Below, piece by piece: positions 7,579-22,578 of a stretch of DNA of 64,000 nucleotides. Within the stretch, counting starts at the first letter, position 1. Each line of letters starts with the position of its first letter. Both the position numbers and the translations under genes were made by a program. The DNA comes from a bacterium (GTDB lineage Bacteria; Gemmatimonadota; Gemmatimonadetes; Gemmatimonadales; Gemmatimonadaceae): contig JAIXTI010000123.1 in the NCBI GenBank assembly GCA_027484025.1, forward strand, positions 1-64,000, read 5' to 3'. The notes beneath the pieces are model-generated. The model did no database searches. It was not told the origin of the DNA and saw only the letters and a program-made list of their open reading frames with translations.

Positions 7579-8301
7579 TCAGAGGCTGTCGGGCGGCAGC
7601 TCCTGACTGGCCGGCGGCATCATGCCGCGACGGCGGTTGCCGTTCGGCGCCATCGGCGGCTGTCCCATGCCGGGGCCACCCATGCCGGGGCCACCCATCC
7701 CACGGCCGCGCATTCCCCCAGCGCCCATACCGGGGCCGCCCTGTCCACGCGGTCCCTGGCCGCGATTCATGCCGCGGCCACCCTGCCCGCGACCACGCCG
7801 CGCCTTCCCCGCACGCTGCTGGCGCAAATTGTCGAGGGTCGACTTCTGCGCTGTCGTGAGCACGGCCCGGACCTCCTGACGCTGCCGCAAGGCGGCAATC
7901 ATCTGCTCGTTGCGTAACGCACTCATGCGGTCGAGTGCCGTCCGCGCTTTCGCGAGGTTTCCGTCACCCTGCATGGCGTCCATGAGGTCGGCCTGCGCCC
8001 GCAAACGGTCGGATGCGTTCGGCTTCGGGGACGCGCTGTTCTGCAGCGCTTCGAGCTTCTTGACCTGATCTTCGGTGAGGTTGAGCTGACTCCTCATGCG
8101 GAGCAGCATGGCTGCCGGATTACCGCGCGCGCCGCCCCTCGCCTGAGCGTCTGCTCCGCGCGCCATCCCCGGAGCGCCGCCTTGCGCGCCACGCGGACGG
8201 GGACCGCCCGGTGCGCCGGGCCCCTGCGCCGACGCGCCGCTGGAGAATGCCAATCCCGCCACAGTCGCGGCGAGAAACAGATGGGAACGGATATGTGTCA
8301 T
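7579..8301 (-). CDS. Spy/CpxP-like periplasmic protein with Gly/Met/Arg-rich tail
   Basis: A 240-aa secreted protein: signal peptide ending near SSGASA, a Gly/Pro/Ala/Arg-rich linker, then a helical LTxxQ-type core (LNLTEDQVKKLEALQ and LTTAQKSTLDNLRQQRAG) as in Spy/CpxP envelope chaperones and metal-stress sensors. The last 75 residues are a low-complexity Gly/Met/Arg repeat with GPGMG and GMGG units, possibly metal-binding. The ATG at 8299-8301 is preceded by GGAAGG five bases upstream; a 12-residue longer frame has no signal. It may respond to envelope stress; the chaperone role is by family analogy. Confidence 0.75.
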   Translation of the reverse strand: MTHIRSHLFLAATVAGLAFSSGASAQGPGAPGGPRPRGAQGGAPGMARGADAQARGGARGNPAAMLLRMRSQLNLTEDQVKKLEALQNSASPKPNASDRLRAQADLMDAMQGDGNLAKARTALDRMSALRNEQMIAALRQRQEVRAVLTTAQKSTLDNLRQQRAGKARRGRGQGGRGMNRGQGPRGQGGPGMGAGGMRGRGMGGPGMGGPGMGQPPMAPNGNRRRGMMPPASQELPPDSL

Positions 8302-8430
8302 CAGAGCCTTCCGGTTGAGTGCAGCGGTCGCCCGCACGGCGCCCGCCTCACCCTCTTGGACGACATTCCGGACCGGGCGTTAATGACCGGGTCGGTGGCG
8401 CAGCGCCCACAACATCCCGCGGTGCTGCTG

Positions 8431-8559: not shown

Positions 8560-10851
8560 GTGGGATCCTGGTTCGACACGATTGGCACGTGGCTCTTCAA
8601 GTATCCCCCGCGCGCCTTTGCCCGCGGGGAGTTCGTCGTGGCGCCCGTGTTGCCCGTGGTCGTGCTCTCGGTGGCGGCGGTTGCGTTCGTGCTGCTCGTG
8701 CTCTTCACGCACAGCCGGTTGCGCACGCTCCCGCTTCGTGATCGCGCCGTGCTTGGCGCGCTGCGCCTGGCGGCTTTGCTTTTGGTGGTTGCCTGTCTGT
8801 TTCGTCCGGGGCTCGTGACCGCCGCCGCGGTGCCGCAGCGCAATGTGCTCGCGGTGCTCTACGACGATTCACGCAGCATGCGCATTGCCGACGCCGACAG
8901 CAGCACACGGCTCGCAGCAGTCCAGCGCACCTTTGCCGACAGCAGCGCGCTCATGCGAACGCTGGCCACGCGCTTCGCCTTGCGGCGTTTCCGTTTTGCC
9001 GCCGGGGCGACACCGGTGCGCAGCGCCGGAGAGGTGCAAGCCACCGGCACGCGCTCGGACCTCGCACAATCACTGCAGGACGCCCGCGACGACCTCGAAG
9101 GGATGCCGCTCGCCGGTGTCGTGCTGGTATCCGACGGTGCCGACAACGGCACCGCATCCATGGACGACGCGCTGCTGGCGCTGCGCGCACGGCGCGTGCC
9201 GGTCTACACGGTTGGTGTGGGGCGCGAGCGATTCGATCGCGATATCGCCATCGAGCGGGTACAGGCGCCGCGGCGCATGCTTTCCGGCGCGGCGGGTGTG
9301 GTCGAAGTCGATGTTCGTGTACGTGGCCTTGGGCGAAACGCGGTGCCGCTCACCCTCGAAGCCGACGGGCGCGTGGTCGCGACAGAAACCGTCGCGCCGC
9401 CCGCGCGCGGCGATCTCACCACCGTACGCGTGCGCGTTCCGCCGCTGCCGGTGGGCGTGCATCGGCTCGCGGTGCGGGTCGCGCCGCTTGCCAGCGAAAT
9501 CGTCACGCAAAACAACGAATGGCAGACGAGCCTCGAAGTGCGCGGCGGTCCCGACCGGGTACTGTACGTCGAAGGCGAACCGCGACCGGAGTTTGCCTTT
9601 CTGCGTCGCGCCGTGAACGACGACAGCGCGGTGGTCGTGGTGGGACTCATGCGCAGCGCCGACAAGAAGTACCTGCGCCTTGGCGTGCGCGACAGCCTCG
9701 AACTGCTCAACGGGTTTCCCACCACGCGTGACGAACTGTTCGCGTATCGTGCCATCATTCTCGGGAGTGTCGAGGCGGCGTTCTTCACTGGCGACCAGCT
9801 GCGCATGCTCGCCGACTTCGTGAGCGTGCGCGGTGGCGCGCTGCTCGTCCTCGGCGGACGCGCGTCGCTGGCGGAGGGCGGATTTGCCGGGACGCCGCTG
9901 TCCGACGTGCTGCCGCTGACGGTCGCGCGCGGCGAGGTGAACGCCGAGGGCCCTGCCACCGAAGTGCAGCTGCGCCCCACGCGTGCTGGTGAGGTGCACC
10001 CGGCGTTGCAGTTGCGTGAATCGCTCGCGGGCTCGCGGCAGCGTTGGGATTCGCTGCCGTCGCTCACGATCGTGAACCGCCTCGGTGCGCTGCGCGCCGG
10101 CGCGACGATGCTGTTGAGCGGTCGGAGCACGGATGGGCGTAGCGACATTCCGATTTTGTCGTGGCAGCGTTATGGCCGCGGGATGAGTGCGGTGTTCGGC
10201 GCTCAGGACTCGTGGCTCTGGCGCATGGACGTGAATACGCCCGTCGAAGACCGCACGCATCAGACGTTCTGGCGCCAGATGATCCGCTGGCTCGTGGATG
10301 ATGTGCCGGCGCCACTTGCCGTCACCGCAACACCGGCGCGCGTGGCGCCGGGCGAATCGGTGGTGTTGCGTGCCCAGGTTGCCACCGCAGAGTTCGTCGA
10401 CATCAACGACGCCACCGTGTCGGCAACGGTGACGAGCCCGACGGGCACGAGTGAACTACTGTCGCTCGAGTGGTCACTGCGCGACGACGGGAGCTACAGT
10501 GCGACGTTCACGCCGCGCGATACGGGTCGTTACACCGTCGATGCGCTCGCACGGACGGGCCGCGACTCGGTGCAGGCGGTCACGACGACGGTGCTCGTCG
10601 ATGAGCGTGGCGCCGACGTGGCGCAGGCCGAGCTTCGCACACCGCTTCTGCGCCGTATCGCCGACGAAACCGGCGGGCGCTATTACCCGCTCGACGATGC
10701 GGCACGGCTCGCCGACGACGCCACCTTCACCAACGCCGGCGTCACGGTGCGCGAAGCGAAGGATCTGTGGGACATGCCGGCGGTATTCCTCCTGTTGGCG
10801 GTCATGCTGATCGCGGAATGGGGCTACCGTCGGTGGAGGGGGTTGGCATGA
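8560..10851 (+). CDS. VWA-domain membrane protein with glutamine-amidotransferase-like region
   Basis: First gene of an eight-gene module. The 763-aa protein has two N-terminal membrane helices (about 26-50 and 65-88) and then a VWA domain whose metal-ion-dependent adhesion site is intact: YDDSRSM (DxSxS), a following Thr/Asp segment and VLVSDGADNG. Beta-sandwich segments follow, then a class-I-amidotransferase-like fold at about 335-450 (DRVLYVEGEPRPEFAF, GGALLVLGG) without a recognised catalytic Cys. A final helix near the C-terminus (PAVFLLLAVMLIAEWG) ends it. Such proteins accompany MoxR ATPases. GTG start, poor SD. It overlaps the next gene by ATGA. Confidence 0.85.
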   Translation: MGSWFDTIGTWLFKYPPRAFARGEFVVAPVLPVVVLSVAAVAFVLLVLFTHSRLRTLPLRDRAVLGALRLAALLLVVACLFRPGLVTAAAVPQRNVLAVLYDDSRSMRIADADSSTRLAAVQRTFADSSALMRTLATRFALRRFRFAAGATPVRSAGEVQATGTRSDLAQSLQDARDDLEGMPLAGVVLVSDGADNGTASMDDALLALRARRVPVYTVGVGRERFDRDIAIERVQAPRRMLSGAAGVVEVDVRVRGLGRNAVPLTLEADGRVVATETVAPPARGDLTTVRVRVPPLPVGVHRLAVRVAPLASEIVTQNNEWQTSLEVRGGPDRVLYVEGEPRPEFAFLRRAVNDDSAVVVVGLMRSADKKYLRLGVRDSLELLNGFPTTRDELFAYRAIILGSVEAAFFTGDQLRMLADFVSVRGGALLVLGGRASLAEGGFAGTPLSDVLPLTVARGEVNAEGPATEVQLRPTRAGEVHPALQLRESLAGSRQRWDSLPSLTIVNRLGALRAGATMLLSGRSTDGRSDIPILSWQRYGRGMSAVFGAQDSWLWRMDVNTPVEDRTHQTFWRQMIRWLVDDVPAPLAVTATPARVAPGESVVLRAQVATAEFVDINDATVSATVTSPTGTSELLSLEWSLRDDGSYSATFTPRDTGRYTVDALARTGRDSVQAVTTTVLVDERGADVAQAELRTPLLRRIADETGGRYYPLDDAARLADDATFTNAGVTVREAKDLWDMPAVFLLLAVMLIAEWGYRRWRGLA

Positions 10852-11783
10852 GCAGCGAGCGTGGCATACGGTGTTCGTTGTTGGCAGCGGCGCTCATGCT
10901 GAGTACGGCTGTCCCGGCCATGGCGCAGCGCACTCATGCGCTCGTCGTCGCCGGGTTGTCCGGCGATCCGGCGTTTCGCACCCGCTTCACCACCGCCGTG
11001 ACGGCCACGCGCACTGCCGCGACCGAACGCTGGGGAGTCGCCGATTCCAGTCTCATCGTACTGACCGAAGACTCTGCCGCGTTCAACGGGCGCTCGACGA
11101 AAGAGAACATCGGCCAGGCGTTCGTCACCCTCTCCAAGCGTGTAGCGCCTGGCGACATCCTGCTTGTGTTGCTGCTGGGGCATGGCAGCGGTGAAGGCGC
11201 GGCTTCCAAGGTGAACTTGCCGGGTCCCGATGCGACGGCCGCCGAGTACGCGAGTTGGCTTGCGCCATTTACGAAGCAGCAAGTGGTGTTCGTCAACGCC
11301 GCCACCGGCAGCGGCGACTTCGTGCCCGTGCTTGCCACTCCCGGGCGGGTGGTGGTCACGGCGACGCGGTCGGCGGTGGAAAAGAACGACGCGGAATTCC
11401 TGCAGTTCTTCACGCGGGCGCTGACAAGTGACGACGCCGATGCCGACAAGGATGGCCGGCTCTCGGTGCTCGAGGCATTCCGTTTTGCCCGGACCGAAGT
11501 GGGGAAGTCGTACGAGGCCGGCAATCGGATGCTCACCGAACATGCCGTGTTGAGTGACTCGGTCGTGGCGGCACGAATTGCCTTCGGCAAGCGTGGTAGC
11601 TCGACCAATCCGAAGGTTGCCGCGCTGTTGGCGGAACGGCAGGCATTGGAATCGCAGGTGGCGGCACTGCGCACGCGCAAATCCACCATGGACGCCGCCG
11701 CCTACGAGGCGGAGTTGGAGCGTCTGCTGCTGGCGCTCGCAGAAAAGTCGGCAGCCATCAAGGCAGCGGGCGGCAGCCAGTGA
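10848..11783 (+). CDS. Caspase-like (C13/C14 fold) protein lacking the catalytic cysteine, with EF-hand
   Basis: The 311-aa exported protein (signal ending VPAMAQ) resembles bacterial caspase-like domains: a strand, then LLLGHGSGEG with the catalytic-type His112, then the strand that normally carries DxC. Here that strand reads VVFVNAATGSG, so the position expected for Cys is Ala152. A perfect EF-hand loop follows, Asp198-x-Asp200-x-Asp202-Gly203-x-Leu205-x3-Glu209, placed where metacaspase-like proteins often have regulatory inserts. The C-terminus is a coiled coil (about 245-311). The start was chosen by the 4-bp overlap with the VWA gene and a GGAGGGGG upstream. Likely a non-proteolytic, Ca-responsive scaffold; this is inference. 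Confidence 0.7.
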   Translation: MSSERGIRCSLLAAALMLSTAVPAMAQRTHALVVAGLSGDPAFRTRFTTAVTATRTAATERWGVADSSLIVLTEDSAAFNGRSTKENIGQAFVTLSKRVAPGDILLVLLLGHGSGEGAASKVNLPGPDATAAEYASWLAPFTKQQVVFVNAATGSGDFVPVLATPGRVVVTATRSAVEKNDAEFLQFFTRALTSDDADADKDGRLSVLEAFRFARTEVGKSYEAGNRMLTEHAVLSDSVVAARIAFGKRGSSTNPKVAALLAERQALESQVAALRTRKSTMDAAAYEAELERLLLALAEKSAAIKAAGGSQ

Positions 11784-14107
11784 TGCGCCGACCTGTACTT
11801 TCGGTAGGGCTCGCGTTCGCCACCGCGCTCGCGGCCGGCGTTGCCGTAGCGCAACCCGCTGCCCGCGCGGATCGTTTCGAGGGCGACGTCGCGGCCCCCG
11901 ACGCGCTGGCGCGACGCGGCGCGCATTCCGATGCCGCGCAGCGCGCCCGTCGCGTCACGGCGGCGTACGAACAGCAGGGCGCCCGCAACAGCAGCGAATA
12001 CAACTCCGTTGGCCGCGCCTACGTGTTGCTCGGTACGGGCAATGCCGGTGCCGTTCGGTCGGCGCTCTCGGCCTTTGACCGCGCGGTGAAGGCCGACTCG
12101 TCGAACCTCGACGCACAGCGGCGCATCGGCGCGCTTTTCCTGGACAAGTACAATGCTCCCGAAGCACGCGCCTCGTACGAAGCGGTGCTGAAGCGCGCCC
12201 CGAACGATGTGGACGCGTTGTTGGGGTTGGCGCAGGTGGAAGAATTCGAGGGTAAGGGTACGGCGCTCGTGACCGCGCGTCGTGCGCTGGCCATCGCACC
12301 ACAGCATGCGGGCGTGCTGGCGTATGTCGCTCGCCTGCACCTCGATGCGGAAACGTTCGACTCGGCACGAACGACCGCGCAGCGCGCCATTGCCGCCGAC
12401 AGCAGCTCGATCGACGCGTGGTCGGTACTTGGGGCGCACGCCTGGCTGAGCGGCGACTCGGCAGCGTATCGACGTGCGTTGCAGGCGGTTACCGGGTTGC
12501 AGCCGCAACCGAGTGCCTTTTATACGGCGCTGGCCGAAGCGGCGGGGAGACAGCGACGTTATGCGGAATCGGTGCAGCTGGCGCAGCTGGCCGTGCGCTA
12601 CGACAGCAGCTCCACCAAGGCGTTAGGTGTGCTGGGCACTACGCAACTGCGCGTGGGGCAAATGACCGAAGGACGCGCTGCGGTGGAGCGGGCTTTCGCA
12701 CTCGATCCGTTCAACCTGTGGCACAAGAACACGCTCGATCTGCTGGACAAGATGCGAAGCTTTCGCACGGTCTCGCGCGGTCGTTTCGAAGTGGTCGCGC
12801 CTGTTGACGATGCCGAACTGCTGTCGCTGTACATCATCCCATTGCTCGAGCGTGCGTACGATTCGTTGTCGGTACGCTATGCGTTCAAAGCACCGACACC
12901 GGTCCGTCTCGAGTTCTTCCGGCAACACGCCGACTTCTCGGTACGGACCGTGGGGTTGGTGGGGCTGGGTGCTTTGGGGGTGAGCTTCGGGAGTCTGCTG
13001 GCGATGGACACCCCCAACGCGCGCGAACGCGGCACGTTCAACTGGGGCAGCACGGCGTGGCACGAACTCACGCACGCGTTCACGCTCGGTGCCTCGGCGC
13101 ATCGCGTGCCGCGGTGGCTGTCCGAGGGGCTGTCGGTGCACGAGGAACGTCGCGCAAACAGCGGCTGGGGAGCGCGCACGACGCTGCCGTGGATTCTGGC
13201 CTACAAGAACGGACGCTTGCGCCCCATCAGCCAACTGACCGATGGCTTCATGCGGCCGCGCTACGCCGAAGAGACCTCATTCAGCTATTACCACGCCTCA
13301 CTGTTCTGTGAGTGGGTGGAGCGCACCAAGGGGGCTGCCGCGTTGCCGGCGCTGCTGGTGGCGTATCGTGATGGCCTCGACACTCCCGCGGTGATGCAGC
13401 GCGTTCTCGGATTGACCATGCCTCAAGTCGACGCGCAGTTCGATCTGTGGCTCACGCAGCGGTTCTCACAGGAGCTCGAGGCAGTGGCATCGAGTGCGCC
13501 GGGCGACAGCAGCGGCGGCACCTTCGTACAGACGATGCGACGTGCCGCGGAACTGGTCGATTCGCCGCGCGAGGCGCAGCGCGACTCGGCGCGGGCATTG
13601 CTCGAGCGGGCGCGTCGGGCATTCCCTTCGTACGCCGGGGATGACGGCCCCGCATGGTACCTCACGCGCGTGGCGTTGTCGGTGCACGATACTGCGTTGG
13701 CGTTGCAGATGATCGAGCAGGTCACCGACCGCGATGAAACCGCGTATGCCGCGAACAAGCTCGAAGCGGAGCTCCGCGAGCGCCGTGGAGATCTCGTTGG
13801 CGCAGTGGCGGCGCTGGAGCGCATGATCTGGGTGTGGCCGTATGTGGCCGGCGATCACGAGGCCCTGGCCGTGCTGGCGGGCAAGCAGGGAGATCACGCG
13901 CGTGCCATTCGTGAGCGGCGCGCGGTGATTGCATTGCGCCCGCCCGATCTCACCGAGGCGCGTTACGAGCTGGCGCGGGCGTTGGCAGCCGGCGGCGACA
14001 TTCCGGGCGCGCGCCGTGAGCTGTTGAGCATTCTCGAAGACGCGCCGAGCTACGAGAACGCGCAGCTGTTGCTGCTCGAACTGCGCAAGCGCGGCGGTGG
14101 CGCATGA
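11783..14107 (+). CDS. TPR-repeat gluzincin metallopeptidase, periplasmic
   Basis: A 774-aa exported protein (signal cleaved near GVAVAQ). Residues about 45-310 form tetratricopeptide-like helical repeats. A zinc peptidase domain follows with HELTH at 427-431 and WLSEGLSVHEE giving the third ligand Glu448, the gluzincin arrangement of M1/M61-like peptidases. Further TPR-like helices fill 560-774. All catalytic residues are present, so it is probably active. The ATG at 11783 overlaps the previous stop by one base (TGATG); the GTG three bases earlier is an alternative. In the module it may process envelope proteins presented by the VWA/MoxR components. Confidence 0.85.
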   Translation: MRRPVLSVGLAFATALAAGVAVAQPAARADRFEGDVAAPDALARRGAHSDAAQRARRVTAAYEQQGARNSSEYNSVGRAYVLLGTGNAGAVRSALSAFDRAVKADSSNLDAQRRIGALFLDKYNAPEARASYEAVLKRAPNDVDALLGLAQVEEFEGKGTALVTARRALAIAPQHAGVLAYVARLHLDAETFDSARTTAQRAIAADSSSIDAWSVLGAHAWLSGDSAAYRRALQAVTGLQPQPSAFYTALAEAAGRQRRYAESVQLAQLAVRYDSSSTKALGVLGTTQLRVGQMTEGRAAVERAFALDPFNLWHKNTLDLLDKMRSFRTVSRGRFEVVAPVDDAELLSLYIIPLLERAYDSLSVRYAFKAPTPVRLEFFRQHADFSVRTVGLVGLGALGVSFGSLLAMDTPNARERGTFNWGSTAWHELTHAFTLGASAHRVPRWLSEGLSVHEERRANSGWGARTTLPWILAYKNGRLRPISQLTDGFMRPRYAEETSFSYYHASLFCEWVERTKGAAALPALLVAYRDGLDTPAVMQRVLGLTMPQVDAQFDLWLTQRFSQELEAVASSAPGDSSGGTFVQTMRRAAELVDSPREAQRDSARALLERARRAFPSYAGDDGPAWYLTRVALSVHDTALALQMIEQVTDRDETAYAANKLEAELRERRGDLVGAVAALERMIWVWPYVAGDHEALAVLAGKQGDHARAIRERRAVIALRPPDLTEARYELARALAAGGDIPGARRELLSILEDAPSYENAQLLLLELRKRGGGA

Positions 14108-14877
14108 GGACTGCGATGCGTCGTATGCTGTTGGTGATCGTATCCCTGTCAGGCCTTCTGGGTGCGTCGACTGCTCAGGCGCAGCGCCGGCGAGCGCCGG
14201 AGTTCGAACCCAACGTCGCCTACGATGGGCGGTTCACGTGGGTGCGGGTGAAGTACATGCTGCCCGACCTGAGCAGCGGGAGCGGCTTCCGCGGCGGTCG
14301 CGACCTGCCATGGTCGCACGACTATCCACGCGGCGAACGCAACTTTACCAAGATCCTGAGCACGCTGTCCACAGCCCGCATTCGACTGGGATCGAGCAAC
14401 ATCCTGACGCTCGACGATCCCGAGATGGGCAAGTTCCCGGTGGCGTACATGGCCGAACCGGGTTTCTGGCGACCGAACGACAAGGAAGTGCTTGGGCTGC
14501 GGAATTATCTCGCGAAGGGCGGCTTCATCATTTTCGACGATTTTGCCGGACAGCACTGGCTCAACTTCGAGAGTCAGATGCGCCGGGTGCTGCCGAATGC
14601 GCGCGCCATCCCGATGGAGCTCACGCATCCGGTGTTCGATGCGTTCTACAAGGTGAAGACGCTGGCGTACACGCATCCGTATTACGGGCTCAAGTCGGAG
14701 TTCTACGGGTTCTTCGAGGACAACGACCCCAAGAAGCGGCTGCTGGCCATCGCGAACTACAACAACGACCTGTCCGAAATGTGGGAGTTCTCCGACGTCG
14801 GAATGTTTCCCGTGGACCTGTCGAACGAAGCGTACAAGCTGGGCGTGAATTACATCATCTACGCGTTGACGCGTTGA
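14104..14877 (+). CDS. DUF4159 exported protein
   Basis: A 257-aa protein with a signal peptide (cleavage near AQAQRR) and the DUF4159 fold, a class-I-amidotransferase-like domain of unknown activity that regularly accompanies MoxR/DUF58/BatA genes. Visible family features are FTWVRVKY near the start, the central WSHDYPRGERNF, GGFIIFDDF, and NYNNDLSEMWEFSD followed by ANYIIYAL-like residues (here VNYIIYAL) at the end. It overlaps the peptidase gene by 4 bp (ATGA) and precedes moxR by 27 bp. Confidence 0.88.
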   Translation: MRTAMRRMLLVIVSLSGLLGASTAQAQRRRAPEFEPNVAYDGRFTWVRVKYMLPDLSSGSGFRGGRDLPWSHDYPRGERNFTKILSTLSTARIRLGSSNILTLDDPEMGKFPVAYMAEPGFWRPNDKEVLGLRNYLAKGGFIIFDDFAGQHWLNFESQMRRVLPNARAIPMELTHPVFDAFYKVKTLAYTHPYYGLKSEFYGFFEDNDPKKRLLAIANYNNDLSEMWEFSDVGMFPVDLSNEAYKLGVNYIIYALTR

Positions 14878-14904
14878 CCTTTCCCCTCTCTGCCGAGGAC
14901 CTGC

Positions 14905-15933
<1,029 letters not shown>

Positions 15934-15945
15934 CCGGTATCTCCT

Positions 15946-16845
15946 GTGTCTGCTGCTCCGGCTGCCTTTCTCGACCCCGCGCTGCTCGCGAAGATCTCCG
16001 ATCTCGCGCTGTTGGCGCGTACCGTCGTGGACGGCTTCATGCACGGTCAGCATCGCTCCATGCGCAAAGGTTCGTCGCTCGACTTTGCGGAACATCGGTC
16101 GTATCAGCCGGGGGACGACCTGCGGCGCATCGACTGGCGTGTGTACGGCCGGACTGACCGGTTTTACATCAAGGAGTACGACGCCGACACCAATGCGAGC
16201 GTACTCTTCGCGGTCGACACATCGGGAAGCATGAACTACGGCAGCGGCGCGGTCACGAAGTTCGCGTACGCGCGTATGCTTACCGCCAGCCTGGCCTGGC
16301 TCTCCAAAACGCAGGGTGACCGCGTTGGACTGGCGACGTTCACACAGGAGCTCGTCGACGTCATCCCGCCGTCGGTGCGGCACCTGCAGCGCATGCTGCA
16401 CACGCTGGCGGCGACCAAGGCTGGCGGGCCGAGCCAGCTGATCACGTCGCTCGAGAAGGTGGGGCTGCTTTCGCAGCGTGCCGGCATTCTGGTGCTGGTG
16501 AGCGACTGTTACGAGCAACCCGACGCTGTCGGGCGCGCTGTCGACGCGCTGCGCATGCACGGGCACGACGTGATCGTGTTCCACGTGGTCGATCCGAGCG
16601 AACGCGACTTGCCCGGCGACGACGACACGACGTTCGAAGATGCCGAGACCGGTGCGCTGCTCCCACTCAAGCCGGCGGCCTTGCGCGAAAAGTACAAGGC
16701 ACTCGTGACAGCCCACCATCAGGCGCTGCAGTCGCGCTTCACGGCGGCCGGTGCCGATTACGTGCGCCTCGACACCAGCGAGCCGCTCGATCGCGCGCTG
16801 CACAGCTACCTCGACGCGCGGCTGTCGCGCAGCCGGGTGCGCTGA
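15946..16845 (+). CDS. DUF58 protein (MoxR partner)
   Basis: The 299-aa product carries the DUF58 signature YQPGDDLRRIDWRVYGR followed by a VWA-like fold with an intact DTSGS (AVDTSGSMNYG). It has no membrane segment, so it probably sits in the cytoplasm as the adaptor between MoxR and the membrane VWA proteins. GTG start at 15946; the VWA gene downstream begins 2 bp after the stop. Confidence 0.93.
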   Translation: MSAAPAAFLDPALLAKISDLALLARTVVDGFMHGQHRSMRKGSSLDFAEHRSYQPGDDLRRIDWRVYGRTDRFYIKEYDADTNASVLFAVDTSGSMNYGSGAVTKFAYARMLTASLAWLSKTQGDRVGLATFTQELVDVIPPSVRHLQRMLHTLAATKAGGPSQLITSLEKVGLLSQRAGILVLVSDCYEQPDAVGRAVDALRMHGHDVIVFHVVDPSERDLPGDDDTTFEDAETGALLPLKPAALREKYKALVTAHHQALQSRFTAAGADYVRLDTSEPLDRALHSYLDARLSRSRVR

Positions 16846-16847
16846 CG

Positions 16848-18875
16848 ATGGGCTTCCTCGTCCCGGCGTTTCTCGCCGCCATGGCGGCACTGGCCGTGCC
16901 GCTGCTGCTGCACTTGCGCCACCGTGATCGCGACAAGCCTCAGCTGTTCCCGTCGCTGATGTTCCTCGAGAAGCTCACCATCCGCACCGAACAGCGGCAG
17001 CGGGTCAGCGACTGGCCGCTCTTGCTGCTGCGTCTCGCGGCGCTGGCACTGCTCGTGTTGGCCTTCTCGCGCCCGCTCTTCCGTTCGCAGCGCGCGAGCG
17101 CGGGCGATGCCCGCAGCCGCGCCGTTGTCGTGCTCGTCGACCGCTCGCTGAGTATGGGCTACGAGGGCACGTGGGCCCGCGCACTCGATTCGGCGCGCGC
17201 CGTGATCGCGACACTTGGCAACAACGATCGTGTCGCGATCGTGGCGTACGACGACATGGCAGAAACACGGCAGCGTCTGACCACCGACAAAGCCGCGGCC
17301 GTCGCCTCGCTGGGGAGCCTCTCACCGCGGGCACGCGGTACCCGCCTCGCGCCGGCCCTGCGCGTCGCGCGCCAGCAGCTGCTCGATGCGCCGTTTGCCG
17401 CGGCACAGATCGTCGTCATATCCGATCTGCAACGGTCCGGCGCCGTGGGGGTTGCCGGCGTAGAACTCCCAACCGGCGTATCGGTGCGCGGCATTGCCGT
17501 TGGTCCCGAACGTTGGGAGAACAGCACCGTACACGCCGTCGATGCGCGACGCGTGGTGAGTGGCGAGCGGACGCTACTTGCGGTGAAGGCGCGCCTGCAG
17601 CGTCACGGGGGGACGGCGCCGCAGGAGCGCGCAGTGCGCCTTGTGCTCAACGGACGCGAAGCCGCCACGCAGCAGGTCACGCTGGCCGCAACCGGAGAAA
17701 CGGTCGTCACGTTTGCGCCGGTACCGGCGCCGGAAGGTGCCGTGGCGGTGCAACTCTCACTGTCGCCGGATGCGCTCGCCGCAGACGATACGCTGGTGGC
17801 CGTTGTGCCCCGCGACGATGACCTGCGCGTGACGCTTATCAACGGCGGCGTCGAAACGCTGTTCCTCGAACGCGCGCTCGATATCGGACGCGCGCCGTCG
17901 GTCCAGCTGACACGCGACGCGAGCGAAGCGTCCCCCTCGGCGCGCACTGGTGTCATGGTGTATTGGGACGCCGTGCCCGGGAGCAGCATTACCCCCTGGC
18001 TGGAAGCCGGCGGCGGGGCGGTGGTCGTGGTTGGCCGTCGGCTTGGGGCACGCCGCGGCAGCCTGTCGCCGCTCATTCCGGCGACGGTGGCCGGCAACGC
18101 TGACCGGCTGAGTGATCGTGGCGGCACGCTACGCGATGTCCGCACGGAGCACCCGCTCTTCGCGCCCTTTCGCGAGGTACCCGATGCACTCGGCGCGGTA
18201 CGCCTCTTCCGATACGCTCGGCTCGACGCAGCACCCGAGGGCGATGTCCTGGCACGCTTTGATGATGGGCTCCCGGCAGTGGTCGAGCGACGCGTCGGTC
18301 AGGGGCGGGTGCTCGTGTTGGCACTGCCGCTCGACAACAACGCTGGAGACTTCCCGCTGCAGCCCGCGTTTCTCCCGTTCGTGCGACAGCTGGTCATGCA
18401 CGCATCAGGGCGTGACGCGACGCCGCTCTGGCGCACCACGGGTGAGCGCTGGGCGCTCTCGCGTGCCATCGCGTCACCGGTGGTGGAAGCGCCCGACGGA
18501 TCACTCATTCGCCCGGTGGCCGATTCGCAGGGCACCGCGATTCCCCTGACCGACGCCGGCGTGTATCGCGCGTACGCCGAACGTGTTGGTGGCGACGCGG
18601 TCAGTGTGCTGGCTGTGAACGTACCCACGTCGGAGTCAGTCCTCACGCCCATGGACACCGCCGAGCTGTTGCTTGGCGTACAGACCGGCGCGGACAGCTT
18701 GGGTCGCGCCGCCGACGCGCCGCAGTCCGACGAGGAACTCGAGCGTCGACAGTCGCCATGGCGCTTGCTCCTGCTGGCCGCGCTGCTGCTGTTGGTGCTG
18801 GAAACTTTTGTTGCCACACGCGGTCGCCGTGGTACGGCGCGTCGTATCGTGGCACAGTCGCGGAGTCAGTCGTGA
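16848..18875 (+). CDS. BatA-like aerotolerance VWA membrane protein
   Basis: A 675-aa membrane protein beginning with the BatA N-terminal motif (FLVPAFLAAMAALAVPLLLHL, then FPSLMFLEKL) and a second helix near 58-76. A VWA domain follows with MIDAS VDRSLSMG, then an amidotransferase-like region around 330-480 (VTLINGGVETLFLERAL, GGGAVVVVGRRLG, RVLVLALPLDNNAGDFPLQP). A C-terminal helix (WRLLLLAALLLLVLETFVA) anchors it again. The architecture parallels the first gene of the module. It shares with Bacteroides BatA only the general layout, so its role in stress tolerance is by analogy. Confidence 0.9.
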   Translation: MGFLVPAFLAAMAALAVPLLLHLRHRDRDKPQLFPSLMFLEKLTIRTEQRQRVSDWPLLLLRLAALALLVLAFSRPLFRSQRASAGDARSRAVVVLVDRSLSMGYEGTWARALDSARAVIATLGNNDRVAIVAYDDMAETRQRLTTDKAAAVASLGSLSPRARGTRLAPALRVARQQLLDAPFAAAQIVVISDLQRSGAVGVAGVELPTGVSVRGIAVGPERWENSTVHAVDARRVVSGERTLLAVKARLQRHGGTAPQERAVRLVLNGREAATQQVTLAATGETVVTFAPVPAPEGAVAVQLSLSPDALAADDTLVAVVPRDDDLRVTLINGGVETLFLERALDIGRAPSVQLTRDASEASPSARTGVMVYWDAVPGSSITPWLEAGGGAVVVVGRRLGARRGSLSPLIPATVAGNADRLSDRGGTLRDVRTEHPLFAPFREVPDALGAVRLFRYARLDAAPEGDVLARFDDGLPAVVERRVGQGRVLVLALPLDNNAGDFPLQPAFLPFVRQLVMHASGRDATPLWRTTGERWALSRAIASPVVEAPDGSLIRPVADSQGTAIPLTDAGVYRAYAERVGGDAVSVLAVNVPTSESVLTPMDTAELLLGVQTGADSLGRAADAPQSDEELERRQSPWRLLLLAALLLLVLETFVATRGRRGTARRIVAQSRSQS

Positions 18876-18927
18876 AGTCTACTGTGAGCTGTCCCATGTG
18901 CGTTCCCAGCAAGCCGGAGCACTACGC

Positions 18928-21900
18928 ATGAGCCCCGATCGGCAGTTGCTCACTACGTTGGCGGCCCTGCGTCGGCAGTGGCGCCTGCGCGTGTTGCTCG
19001 AATCACTGGTCTGGTTGGCCGTCGCAATCGTGCTGGCCACGCTGGCGGCACTCGTGGTGATGCGATTCACCGACGGAAGCGCCACCGCCCCCGTCATCGC
19101 GCGCGCATTCGGCTACATGGTGATTGCCGGCGCGTTGGTATATGGCCTGCTCGTGCCATTGCTCCGTCGCGCTTCGGATGAGCGGTTTGCGTTGTACGTC
19201 GAGGAGCGGGAACCATCGCTCAAGCAGGCGCTCCTCACCGCGGTGCAGGAGGCGCAGCTCCCGGAACATGAGCGTCCGTCACCATCGCTGTCGGCACGCC
19301 TCATGTCACGTGCTGCAGCGGCCATTCGCCCGCTCGAAGCGCACATGGCGCTCGAGCGGCCTCGCATGATTCGCGCGGGACAGGCATTTGCCGGTGTGTC
19401 CGCTGGCGCCGCGCTGCTCTTGTTCTTCGGACCGCAGGCGGTGCGCGATGTGGCCCGGTTGCTGTTCGTGCCGTACAGCACCGCACAAGCTGCGGTGCCG
19501 GTACGTATGCTTACGGTAACGCCCGGAAACGCGAGCGTCCCGCGTGGCGGCGCCATCGAGGTGGAAGCGGCGCTGGTGGGCTTTGCGGCGTCGAACGCGG
19601 AGCTCGTGTTCAGGAGCGACAGTGCGGGCGAATGGCAGCGTCTGCCCATGGCCCCCGATGCGGATTCGTCGCGTTTCGGTTCGCGGTTGTTCGACATCGT
19701 GCAGCGCACTGAGTACTACGTGGAGTCGGCCGAGGTGCGCTCGGCGATCTTCACACTCACGGTGAACGATCTGCCGGCCGTCTCGCGCGTGTCGCTCGAC
19801 TTGCAGTTCCCGTCGTATAGCGGATTACCTGCCGAGCACATTGATGACACGGGCGACCTGGCGGCTGTCGTTGGTACGACGGTGGTCGTACGCGCCAAGG
19901 TGACGCGCGCCGTCGCCGGCGGCACACTCCGTTTCGACGACGGTCGTACGGTGGCGATGGCGCGCGAGAGTGACAGCACCGTCGTGGGGCGCTTTACGGT
20001 GCAGAAGAGCGGTTTCTATCACGTGGATCTCTCCACCGCCGACGGCACGGTGGTGGCGGGCGGCGTGGAGTATGTGGTCGATGCCATTCCCGATCGCGCG
20101 CCCATTGTACGCATCGAGGAGCCCGGCCGCGACACCAAGGTGAGTAACACCGATGAAGTCACGATTTCCGTGCAGGCGTCGGACGACTTGGGAGTGCGCT
20201 CGCTCGAGCTGCGCTATCGCGTCAACGGCGGTGACGAGAAGCGGGTGACGATCGCGGGCGGCTCGAGTCGTCCGCGCGATACGCGCGGGGCGCACACGCT
20301 CTTTCTCGAGGAGATGTCGCTGCAGCCCGGCGACCTGGTGGCGTACCACGCGGTCGCCAAAGATGGTGCGGGGCTCGTGGGGAGCAGCGACGTGTACTTC
20401 CTCGAAGTGCGTCCCTTCGGGAAGGATTACCGGCAATCGGACCAACGCGCGCAGCAGCAACAGCAGGGTGGTGGTGGTCAACCACAAGGCGATTCGCCCG
20501 ACGGGTTCGTCGCGCGTCAGCGTGAAGTGGTGGCGGGCACCTTCAACTGGTTGCGCGACAGTGCGGCCACCAATGCCAAGCAGCGTCGCGAGAACATGAC
20601 GACGCTGGCGATTGCCGAAGGGCGTTTGCGTGAGGACGTCGATCAGCTGGTGAAGCGTTTGGCCGAACGAGGCGTGGCCGCGCAAGACACCAACTTCGCG
20701 AAGATTCGCGCCGAACTGCAGCAGGCCACCGTCGAGCTCAAGAGCGCTGAGGAGCAACTGGGGCTGGTGCGCGGTAACGACGCCTTGGGGCCTGAACAGC
20801 GCGCCTTGCAGCGGCTGCAGCGTGCCGAGGCGCTGTATCGCGACGTGCAGGTGCAGATGGGCGGCGGCGGGGGTGGCGGCGGAGGCGGCGGGGGTGGCCA
20901 GCAGCGCGCAGAAGATCTCGCCGACCTGTTCGAGTTGCAGAACGACAAACAGCGCAACCAGTACGAGACGGTGCAGCAGCAGCGTGCGCAGGACGGCGCG
21001 CAGCCGCAGGTCGACGAAACGCTCGACCGGTTGCGTCAACTGGCGAGTCGTCAGCAGCAGGAGAACGAACGGATGCAGCGCATGGCAGAAGCCATGCGGC
21101 AGCGACTCGCGCAGGAGGGAGGCGCGTCGGGATCCTCGTCCGGTGGTGCGTCGTCAGGCGGTGCATCAGCCGGTGCGGCGGGGCGTTCGTCTTCGGGGAG
21201 CCCGAGCGGTGGCAACAGTGCGAGCGGTGCGCAGCGTGAGCTGGCGCGGCAGGCCGAAGAAGAAGCCCGTCGCCTTGAGCGGTTGGCGCGCGAGGAGAAC
21301 AACCAGGAGTTGCAGCGTGCCGCACAGCAGTTGCAGCAGGCGGCCGACAACATGCGCCGCGCGGCGACCGGGTCATCAGCGCAAGGCGGCGCGGCGCTCG
21401 AGGAGTTGAACAGAGCGGCGCGGAATCTGGAGGGGGCGCGGGCCTCGGGCACCACGCGTGGCATTCAGGAGCTCGCCGACAAGGCGCGCGATCTCGAGGC
21501 GCGTCAACAGCAGATTGCCGAAAGCGTGAAGGAGATGCAGGGCGCATCGGCCGGGGAGCGCGCCCAGCGTCAGCAGCAGGTCACGCAGCAGAAGGACAAG
21601 CTCAGTGCCGATGTGCGTCAGCTGGAGAGTGCTGCCGATCGTCTGTCGCGTGCAGCGCGGCGAGAGCAGCCCAAGGCCGCCGGCCAAGTCGCCGGGGCCG
21701 CCGATGCCATTCGCGAAACACGCCTTGCGGACAAGATCGACTTCTCCAAGCAGGTCGCGCGAAGCGGCAGCGCGGAGTACGCCGAGGCCTTCGAGAATCA
21801 GATTGGCGAGAATCTGCGCGACGTGTCCGAACGTCTTCGTAGCGCGTCCGGGGCATTGCAGGGCGAGTCGGCGTCACGCGGGCAGGAACGCACACTCGAG

Positions 21901-22578
21901 CGCACGCGTGATCTCGTGTCGGGGATGGAATCGCTACGCGAACGCGTGGCGCAGCGCGCACAGGGGCAACAGGGCCAGCCAGGCCAGCAGGGCCAGCCAG
22001 GCCAGCAGGGCCAGCCAGGCCAGCAGGGCCAGCAGGGCCAGCAGGGCCAGCAGGGCCAGCAGGGCCAGCAAGGCCAGCAAGGCCAGCAAGGCCAGCAGGG
22101 CCAGCAAGGCCAGAGCCAGCAGGGCGCACGCGGCGGTGCGGCACAAGGCGCGGCGCGTCCCGGTGGACAGCCCGGCAATCAGATGGGACGTGGCGGAGGT
22201 GCGATGCCTACCGGGGTCACGCGCGCCGACGCTGAGCAGTTCGCGCGGGAAATGCGCATGCGCAGGCAAAGCGCCGAAGAGGTTCGCCGTGACGCCGCGG
22301 CGCAGGGCGTCGGCACGCAGGATCTCGATCGGGCCATTCAGGCGATGCGCGAGTTCGAGAACAGCGGCGCCTTTGGCGATCCCAAAGGGGTAGAGCAGCT
22401 CCAGAGCGCGCTGGTCGAACGGCTCAAGGACTTCGAGTTCTCGCTCTATCGCGCCGTAGCCGGCAGCGCGGAAGGTCGCCCCGCGGTTGGCGCGCGGACG
22501 AGTGCGCCCGCGGAATATCGCCAGATGGTCGAGGAGTACTATCGCTCGCTGGCCGGCGGGAAGAAGCGGGCGCCGTAA
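18928..22578 (+). CDS. DUF4175-family membrane-anchored coiled-coil protein with GQX repeat
   Basis: A 1216-aa protein, last gene of the module. Three N-terminal hydrophobic segments (about 28-52, 57-75 and 155-170) are followed by beta-sandwich domains to about 490. The remainder is a very long Gln/Arg/Glu/Ala-rich coiled coil. Inside it are a run of 13 glycines near 644-656, a Ser/Gly linker near 730-770 and 17 Gly-Gln-X triplets at 1013-1063. A globular end has MPTGVTRADAEQFAREM. ATG at 18928 with GGAG upstream; the open frame from 18673 overlaps the previous gene and is not used. It may span the periplasm as a tether. Confidence 0.85.
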   Translation: MSPDRQLLTTLAALRRQWRLRVLLESLVWLAVAIVLATLAALVVMRFTDGSATAPVIARAFGYMVIAGALVYGLLVPLLRRASDERFALYVEEREPSLKQALLTAVQEAQLPEHERPSPSLSARLMSRAAAAIRPLEAHMALERPRMIRAGQAFAGVSAGAALLLFFGPQAVRDVARLLFVPYSTAQAAVPVRMLTVTPGNASVPRGGAIEVEAALVGFAASNAELVFRSDSAGEWQRLPMAPDADSSRFGSRLFDIVQRTEYYVESAEVRSAIFTLTVNDLPAVSRVSLDLQFPSYSGLPAEHIDDTGDLAAVVGTTVVVRAKVTRAVAGGTLRFDDGRTVAMARESDSTVVGRFTVQKSGFYHVDLSTADGTVVAGGVEYVVDAIPDRAPIVRIEEPGRDTKVSNTDEVTISVQASDDLGVRSLELRYRVNGGDEKRVTIAGGSSRPRDTRGAHTLFLEEMSLQPGDLVAYHAVAKDGAGLVGSSDVYFLEVRPFGKDYRQSDQRAQQQQQGGGGQPQGDSPDGFVARQREVVAGTFNWLRDSAATNAKQRRENMTTLAIAEGRLREDVDQLVKRLAERGVAAQDTNFAKIRAELQQATVELKSAEEQLGLVRGNDALGPEQRALQRLQRAEALYRDVQVQMGGGGGGGGGGGGGQQRAEDLADLFELQNDKQRNQYETVQQQRAQDGAQPQVDETLDRLRQLASRQQQENERMQRMAEAMRQRLAQEGGASGSSSGGASSGGASAGAAGRSSSGSPSGGNSASGAQRELARQAEEEARRLERLAREENNQELQRAAQQLQQAADNMRRAATGSSAQGGAALEELNRAARNLEGARASGTTRGIQELADKARDLEARQQQIAESVKEMQGASAGERAQRQQQVTQQKDKLSADVRQLESAADRLSRAARREQPKAAGQVAGAADAIRETRLADKIDFSKQVARSGSAEYAEAFENQIGENLRDVSERLRSASGALQGESASRGQERTLERTRDLVSGMESLRERVAQRAQGQQGQPGQQGQPGQQGQPGQQGQQGQQGQQGQQGQQGQQGQQGQQGQQGQSQQGARGGAAQGAARPGGQPGNQMGRGGGAMPTGVTRADAEQFAREMRMRRQSAEEVRRDAAAQGVGTQDLDRAIQAMREFENSGAFGDPKGVEQLQSALVERLKDFEFSLYRAVAGSAEGRPAVGARTSAPAEYRQMVEEYYRSLAGGKKRAP
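21964..22116 (+). repeat. 9-bp tandem repeat coding Gly-Gln-Gln/Gly-Gln-Pro triplets
   Basis: Seventeen in-frame copies of the nonamer GGCCAGCAG and variants: GQQ-GQP alternating three times, ten GQQ, then GQS. It is collagen-like in its Gly-X-Y periodicity but Gln-rich. Such arrays expand or contract by slippage without changing frame. All reverse-strand frames are open here, which produces spurious collagen-like and Cys-Trp-Pro-rich ORFs. Confidence 0.95.

Follow-up and report, generated by a model that had tools for sequence, protein, structure and literature searches.

An eight-gene locus in a Gemmatimonadaceae contig

We analysed a stretch of 64,000 nucleotides from a bacterium of the family Gemmatimonadaceae (GenBank assembly GCA_027484025.1, contig JAIXTI010000123.1, positions 1 to 64,000 of the forward strand; hereafter the window), in which eight genes lie uninterrupted on one strand at positions 8560-22578 and suggest, together, one undescribed envelope machine. 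Their order is GAT, CASP, PEP, DUF4159, MoxR, DUF58, BatA, DUF4175, with junctions of -4, -4, -4, +27, +12, +2 and +52 bases. A first-pass annotation of this DNA had already reported the run as uninterrupted, and the families it listed were essentially right.

GAT, 8560..10851, + strand: membrane VWA/GATase-like protein; two N-terminal transmembrane segments, a predicted periplasmic VWA domain with a metal ion-dependent adhesion site (MIDAS, DxSxS), a GATase1-like domain and a C-terminal transmembrane segment
CASP, 10848..11783, + strand: predicted exported protein of legumain fold (clan CD); His112, Thr153 at the Cys position, EF-hand-like loop at 198-209, C-terminal helical pair
PEP, 11780..14107, + strand: predicted exported tetratricopeptide repeat (TPR) protein with a HELTH...WLSEG zinc-peptidase motif in its centre
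DUF4159, 14104..14877, + strand: predicted exported protein; PF13709 at 150 bits, hydrophobic stretch at the N-terminus
MoxR, 14905..15933, + strand: cytosolic MoxR-type AAA+ ATPase; AAA_3 PF07726 at 208 bits
DUF58, 15946..16845, + strand: cytosolic VWA (MIDAS) protein and presumed MoxR partner; PF01882 at 176 bits, free of hydrophobic segments
BatA, 16848..18875, + strand: two N-terminal transmembrane segments, predicted periplasmic VWA domain, C-terminal transmembrane segment; PF07584 at 73 bits, TIGR02226
DUF4175, 18928..22578, + strand: membrane-anchored protein; Ig-like part followed by a long Q/G/A/R-rich, probably coiled region

The GATase1_like match of GAT (PF07090) reaches 26.6 bits, slightly under its cut-off of 27, and PEP combines TPR matches with a Peptidase_MA_2 match of 22.4 bits, a relation that we treat as tentative because the family cut-off is 32.4. 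The window CASP has no Pfam match. DUF4175 carries PF13779 at 46 bits, a weak Big_7 match and hydrophobic segments at its N-terminus; originally called a giant coiled coil, it is better described as probably coiled in part, as judged from composition alone, and its residues 1001-1100 (window positions ~21928-22227) are a Gln/Gly-rich tract of low complexity with 37 Q and 29 G per 100 residues. The most likely start codons are the ATG at 10848 for CASP and the ATG at 18928 for DUF4175, the latter giving a product of 1216 amino acids.

By simple hydropathy and loop charges (the positive-inside rule) rather than a signal-peptide program, six products look exported or membrane-bound, one more than first annotated, and MoxR and DUF58 look cytosolic, in line with their original assignment. 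The positive-inside rule makes a trans-envelope layout plausible, with the VWA domains of BatA and GAT predicted on the periplasmic side. Within the window, a promoter scan was uninformative (1 site against 1.3 expected), and terminator and Rfam scans returned nothing useful.

Gene order is kept in two phyla

Our Gemmatimonadota set comprised 121 genomes from 62 genera, and 61 were CASP-positive. When the window proteins were used to annotate 40 stretches from 39 of these 61 genomes, the complete order GAT-CASP-PEP-DUF4159-MoxR-DUF58-BatA-DUF4175 was found on one strand in 32, and all genes but DUF4159 in a further four. Among the rest (loci are designated L and genomes G), L107 stops at the end of its contig, with DUF4159 also missing; L109 has no DUF4175 within the 4.2 kb fetched past BatA, a result that was the same with profile hidden Markov models; and G017 is split over L099 and L100, with 22 kb between its CASP and PEP. 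The distance from CASP to the PEP that follows it on the same strand is at most 4 kb in 56 of the 61 genomes, at most 8 kb in two and 22 kb in one; in the remaining two the genes are on different contigs. A scan of named genomes, restricted to the best 80 of 181 relatives and partly overlapping with the stretches above, gave full order at 40 loci, DUF4159 alone missing at six and PEP missing at four, and most other loci among these 80 break off at a contig or flank end. In many loci of both phyla, Gemmatimonadota and Acidobacteriota (for example L098:1940-3232 and L244:6056-7474), GAT is immediately preceded by a ninth, DUF4159-like gene, which the window lacks.

The Acidobacteriota search covered 149 genomes, starting from a locus titled Luteitalea (G152); a strong CASP match was found in 36 of them, all of which are represented among the 39 stretches examined. 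The same complete order was present in 16 of the 39, and a circular permutation, PEP-DUF4159-MoxR-DUF58-BatA-DUF4175-GAT-CASP, in eight. PEP in these eight permuted loci lies within the stretch in two, on separate stretches in two (L310, L311) and was placed by coordinates in four, including L237, whose MoxR part is outside the fetched stretch. Four genomes (G152, G153, G189 and G237) hold both the standard and the permuted form, at L232 and L234, L233 and L160, L256 and L257, and L236 and L237, respectively; in these double-module genomes PEP accompanies the permuted module, and the standard-order module is without PEP and has a MoxR that branches with those of Gemmatimonadota. Single in-frame stops were noted in the PEP matches of G169, G175, G185, G211, G248, G264, G291, G299 and G307, in the CASP matches of G291 and G153, and in the GAT match of G237:C25.

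An order shared by two phyla makes the cluster more than chance, and CASP and PEP do accompany moxR in relatives, as one would expect of the single system that the first-pass annotation had proposed. A search of 61 genomes collected as relatives found CASP in 36 and reached no further phylum, and viral contigs scanned with the CASP alignment held no relative. Searches of a plasmid collection with CASP, PEP, GAT and DUF4159 returned Gemmatirosa kalamazoonensis, one weak C13 peptidase from P. aeruginosa and a Planctomyces plasmid described below; in the first of these, CASP, PEP and GAT are carried by a 1.1-Mb replicon that is catalogued as a plasmid (G080:C3, 744524-750490; equal in length to NZ_CP007129.1).

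The tested flanking genes are not kept with the module. In 160 stretches with short flanks, some loci being included twice, the downstream SSF transporter was found in two, and the gene divergent from the operon upstream (window 7579-8337, - strand), which encodes an exported Spy/CpxP-like LTXXQ protein, was found at the same place in 11, all from close relatives.

GAT, CASP and PEP occur nearly all or none

Taking both phyla together (270 genomes, several of them fragmentary metagenome-assembled genomes), 97 genomes hold all of GAT, CASP and PEP, 169 hold none and four hold part of the set. For Gemmatimonadota the counts are 61 for CASP, 63 for full-length PEP, 62 for GAT and 61 for all three, and for Acidobacteriota 36 (strong matches), 37, 37 and 36. 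The association of CASP with PEP is accordingly strong (Fisher p 1e-32 in Gemmatimonadota and 8e-34 in Acidobacteriota, genome kinship uncorrected). Cut-offs for CASP were E 1e-3 in Gemmatimonadota and, in Acidobacteriota, the 36 matches at 1.6e-63 or better out of 44 at 1e-3, the eight weak ones (E 8e-10 or worse) being left out; those for PEP were 1e-50 or better, and 1e-40, leaving out short matches mostly to TPR parts, and that for GAT was 1e-20. The CASP and PEP sets were compared by computation and the GAT sets by eye.

This co-occurrence is more than linkage, because G293 and G175 hold the core (GAT-DUF4159-MoxR-DUF58-BatA-DUF4175) and a PEP-CASP pair on different contigs, the pair standing alone with no further module gene within the 20 kb fetched (L255 and L260). 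Every one of the 97 sampled genomes with a Cys-less CASP also holds PEP and GAT, these unlinked cases included. One genome, G202, carries a second GAT-CASP locus.

The module has its own MoxR clade

In a tree of 63 MoxR proteins, built without five non-module matches that had no locus given, 28 form-A and seven form-B module MoxR fall on one branch with support of 100/98, and 28 paralogs from the window genome and 12 other genomes fall outside it. Form A by itself is weakly supported (75/87). The form-A MoxR of G152, G189 and G237 sit within a branch (support 100/99) made up of sequences from both phyla, a hint of gene transfer. Three further strong MoxR loci of the window genome have no CASP or PEP within the 10 to 20 kb fetched.

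Sequence motifs of the core are well kept. The GxPGxxKT, ADEINR, ATQNPIE and DRF residues of MoxR are retained in 128 of 128 sequences, DxSxS of DUF58 in 123 of 126 rows (three gapped) and DxSxS of BatA in 110 or 111 of 121 rows (10 gapped). The MIDAS residues D102, S104 and S106 of GAT are invariant in 11 aligned rows and kept in 138, 139 and 138 of 152 rows (about 11 gapped). In PEP, the HExxH motif and the Glu that follows it downstream, the ligand set of gluzincin-type zinc peptidases (Peptidase MA superfamily), are present in every one of the 129 ungapped rows (133 in total), and the active-site motif is intact.

CASP, a predicted legumain-fold protein without the cysteine

CASP is predicted to have a clan CD fold nearest to legumain. 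Peptidase_C13 is matched by 9 of 23 aligned CASP relatives, identity to the legumains listed is 14-18% (VIA-align), and His112 aligns with the His of a C13 peptidase. Among 159 CASP sequences (148 distinct), the nucleophile (Cys) position holds Ser in 138, Thr in 15, the window's included, and D, G, P, A, E or N in the other six, three of which fall in the eight permuted-type copies; Cys is found in none. The SG motif reads SF in seven of those eight copies. Because the catalytic Cys is absent, we class CASP as a legumain-fold protein and not as a C13 peptidase, and candidacy as a C13 peptidase or caspase is rejected on the same count (Cys 0/159). The original description as a dead caspase-like protein was right as to the lost Cys, replaced by Ser or Thr in 153 of 159, and needs refining, the protein having a predicted legumain fold, an invariant His and an EF-hand-like loop.

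Six columns are invariant in all 159 sequences (His112, Gly126, Asp128, Asp198, Glu209 and Glu231), and Ser155 is kept in 156. Asp198 and Glu209 fall where a canonical EF-hand loop has its first and twelfth residues, and CASP may bind calcium through this loop; the one C13 peptidase aligned by hhalign is gapped at this loop. A C-terminal helical pair lies beyond the legumain-matched range.

A proposed envelope machine and its alternatives

MoxR/Bat-type operons are widespread, and for most of them client and job are unclear. The same point is made in PMC3557215 and PMC5700661 (both, like all papers below, cited from excerpts). That the eight genes described here form one functional unit is, in our judgement, nearly certain, because GAT, CASP and PEP occur nearly all or none, the order is conserved, a permuted order exists and the parts co-occur even when unlinked. 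The single trans-envelope machine of the first-pass annotation goes a step further than this unit: we infer one physical complex, along with the topology, calcium binding, the direction of action and the substrate. In this machine the ATPase had been thought to act through the VWA membrane proteins, which would be indirect at best; the VWA domains of BatA and GAT being predicted periplasmic, MoxR would directly reach only that of cytosolic DUF58.

The full mechanism that we propose, to which we give somewhat less than even credence, is an ATP-driven MoxR/VWA machine that matures or drives the CASP-PEP pair. A cytosolic MoxR ring would work on DUF58, and power would pass through the inner membrane to three proteins with large periplasmic domains, BatA, GAT and DUF4175, of which BatA and GAT would contribute MIDAS metal sites; the membrane VWA/GATase-like proteins and DUF4175 would thereby link the cytosolic motor to the periplasmic pair. 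CASP would be a calcium-bound pseudo-legumain, most likely recognising or holding substrate and not cutting it, and the cutting would fall to PEP, the TPR zinc peptidase whose active-site motif is intact. The exported pair would be the dedicated cargo of the machine, which may mature, load or remodel it by analogy with MoxR/VWA pairs that serve metal enzymes. Where MoxR systems have been characterised, the target is usually the gene by which one operon differs from another. CASP and PEP set this MoxR clade apart from its paralogs, and we take them for that reason as dedicated cargo or effectors, a step on which we are evenly divided.

Precedents exist for parts of this mechanism. NorQ and NorD use ATP and a MIDAS site to ready nitric oxide reductase for iron insertion (PMC9976466), and MoxR proteins are required to activate methanol dehydrogenase and CO dehydrogenase (PMC3893208); in the literature found on calcium loading of methanol dehydrogenase, no passage dealt with MoxR. 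Rhizobium MoxR RL3499 is required for membrane integrity and cell shape (PMC3893208; also PMC5700661), and phenotypes of the envelope or of stress have been tied to MoxR/Bat genes in Rhizobium and Riemerella (PMC3893208, PMC5700661, PMC11834572).

Several observations weigh against the proposal. Coupling of MoxR to the periplasm is hypothetical, because the membrane separates MoxR from the periplasmic VWA domains that BatA and GAT carry, and the excerpt of PMC3557215 reports no phenotype for Leptospira biflexa bat deletions. The EF-hand-like loop, judged from sequence, has Asn at its Asp-3 in 9 of 159 CASP. Partial sets comprise G093, with GAT and PEP without CASP but cut by contigs, PEP alone in G051 and, as a fragment, in G290, and a GAT fragment alone in G240. 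CASP loci lack an adjoining PEP in seven genomes (L160, L164, L192 = L234, L194, L236, L242 and L257), six of which have PEP elsewhere (G152, G153, G155, G189, G237 and G248); in G154, no PEP was detected elsewhere in the genome. G267 has a second GAT on a contig without a CASP match. Finally, a Planctomyces plasmid carries part of MoxR with DUF58, BatA and GAT-like genes and no CASP or PEP in the stretch, and because of this plasmid and the MoxR paralog loci without them, the core does not generally depend on CASP and PEP.

A rather unlikely alternative is that CASP and PEP form a periplasmic quality-control protease that removes damaged proteins of the envelope under stress, for which the MoxR core would be an anchor and DUF4175 and the TPR arms a scaffold. 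The intact zinc motif of PEP fits such a role, as do the ties of MoxR/bat genes to envelope integrity or stress tolerance in Rhizobium, Riemerella and Bacteroides (PMC3893208, PMC11834572, PMC3557215) and the Spy/CpxP-like LTXXQ gene divergent upstream within the genus. That gene, however, stands at the locus only in close relatives, no substrate is known, and a fully kept ATPase motor seems excessive for a mere anchor.

CASP might instead be an active enzyme, a legumain-fold hydrolase or ligase of the serine/threonine type that is gated by calcium and works beside PEP; we regard this as improbable. The presence of His112 in all 159 sequences, of Ser or Thr in place of the Cys in all but six and of Ser155 in all but three would suit an enzyme, and a decaying one would be unlikely to retain its His among just six invariant columns. 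The six sequences with other residues at the nucleophile position, half of them permuted-type copies, and the change of SG to SF in seven of the eight such copies speak against activity. Moreover, a Cys-to-Ser change usually inactivates such enzymes. Tyr-Ser variants of bacterial caspase homologs are, in the excerpt of PMC6426788, called pseudo-variants. The boldest version, in which CASP is a live serine/threonine-type legumain-fold enzyme, switched by calcium, loaded by MoxR/VWA and paired with PEP as a two-protease envelope system, is highly improbable; if true, it would be a non-cysteine enzyme of clan CD fold coupled to an AAA+ machine.

A role in defence against rivals or phage is distinctly improbable as well. 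Arc2 (PA4317-23), with a MoxR-like ATPase and VWA, guards against a predicted pore-forming toxin (PMC8926400), some MoxR-vWA ternary conflict systems contain caspase domains (PMC7159879), and presence of the module is patchy, in about half of the sampled Gemmatimonadota and a quarter of the sampled Acidobacteriota genomes. Yet the set of genes hardly varies across the two phyla, no exchange of effectors was seen, and PADLOC matches are weak (caspase at E 3e-4, IetA weaker still). The idea of independent neighbours held together by chance or general synteny has next to no chance and is rejected, given an order kept in two phyla while the tested flanks change, its permutation, and the unlinked co-occurrence of three parts; near-copies among the genomes would hardly explain this, as the Gemmatimonadota set spans 62 genera.

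The proposed MoxR/VWA machine thus gains in CASP and PEP concrete candidates for the periplasmic end of a MoxR system, and the question of what lies there becomes testable.

Comparison with known systems

In the open literature, to which our search was largely confined (most subscription papers being outside it), we found no description of a form that carries CASP and PEP and has a MoxR clade to itself, and no paper on DUF4159, with or without MoxR; for DUF4175 one open paper was found, the excerpt of which concerns cell division in Acinetobacter.

Legumain and other C13 peptidases, as well as metacaspases, differ from CASP in that it is without Cys (159/159), has an EF-hand-like loop, as compared with the one C13 peptidase aligned, and ends in a helical pair. 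Pseudo-orthocaspases (Tyr-Ser) have, like CASP, a caspase-like domain without the His-Cys dyad (PMC6426788); CASP, however, retains the His, replaces the Cys alone, is predicted to fold nearest to legumain and sits in a MoxR cluster. According to the excerpt of a 2012 survey, only one caspase homolog was found in Gemmatimonadetes, and its Cys-His dyad was not intact (PMC3501461), a description that CASP would fit.

MoxR-vWA ternary conflict systems likewise have MoxR and vWA and sometimes caspases (PMC7159879), whereas our module has constant gene content and exported parts. No VMAP, iSTAND or beta-propeller was among the Pfam matches of the eight proteins, Pfam coverage of these domains being unconfirmed, and the window MoxR matches bpMoxR (PF20030) at 41 bits (cut-off 27), probably a cross-match in view of its 208 bits to AAA_3. 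We rejected an assignment of the module to this class. Arc2 of Pseudomonas aeruginosa is also a cluster of a MoxR-like ATPase and VWA, a likeness drawn from its description (PMC8926400). NorQ/NorD shares the pairing of MoxR and VWA, with a MoxR hexamer and a VWA MIDAS acting on a dedicated target (PMC9976466); the target of our module, if any, would be periplasmic, and the module has extra membrane VWA/GATase-like parts.

The Bat-type (Bacteroides aerotolerance) operons (MoxR-DUF58-BatA; Rhizobium RL3499-RL3502, cmdA-D), linked elsewhere to envelope integrity or stress (PMC3893208, PMC5700661, PMC11834572), share with our locus a MoxR with intact Walker motifs, adjacent DUF58 and BatA with MIDAS VWA domains, and membrane proteins; RL3499-RL3502 is likened by description and not by domain comparison. 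The MoxR-DUF58-BatA core is of a known kind, and what the module adds to it is exported CASP and PEP and a MoxR clade of its own relative to the sampled paralogs.

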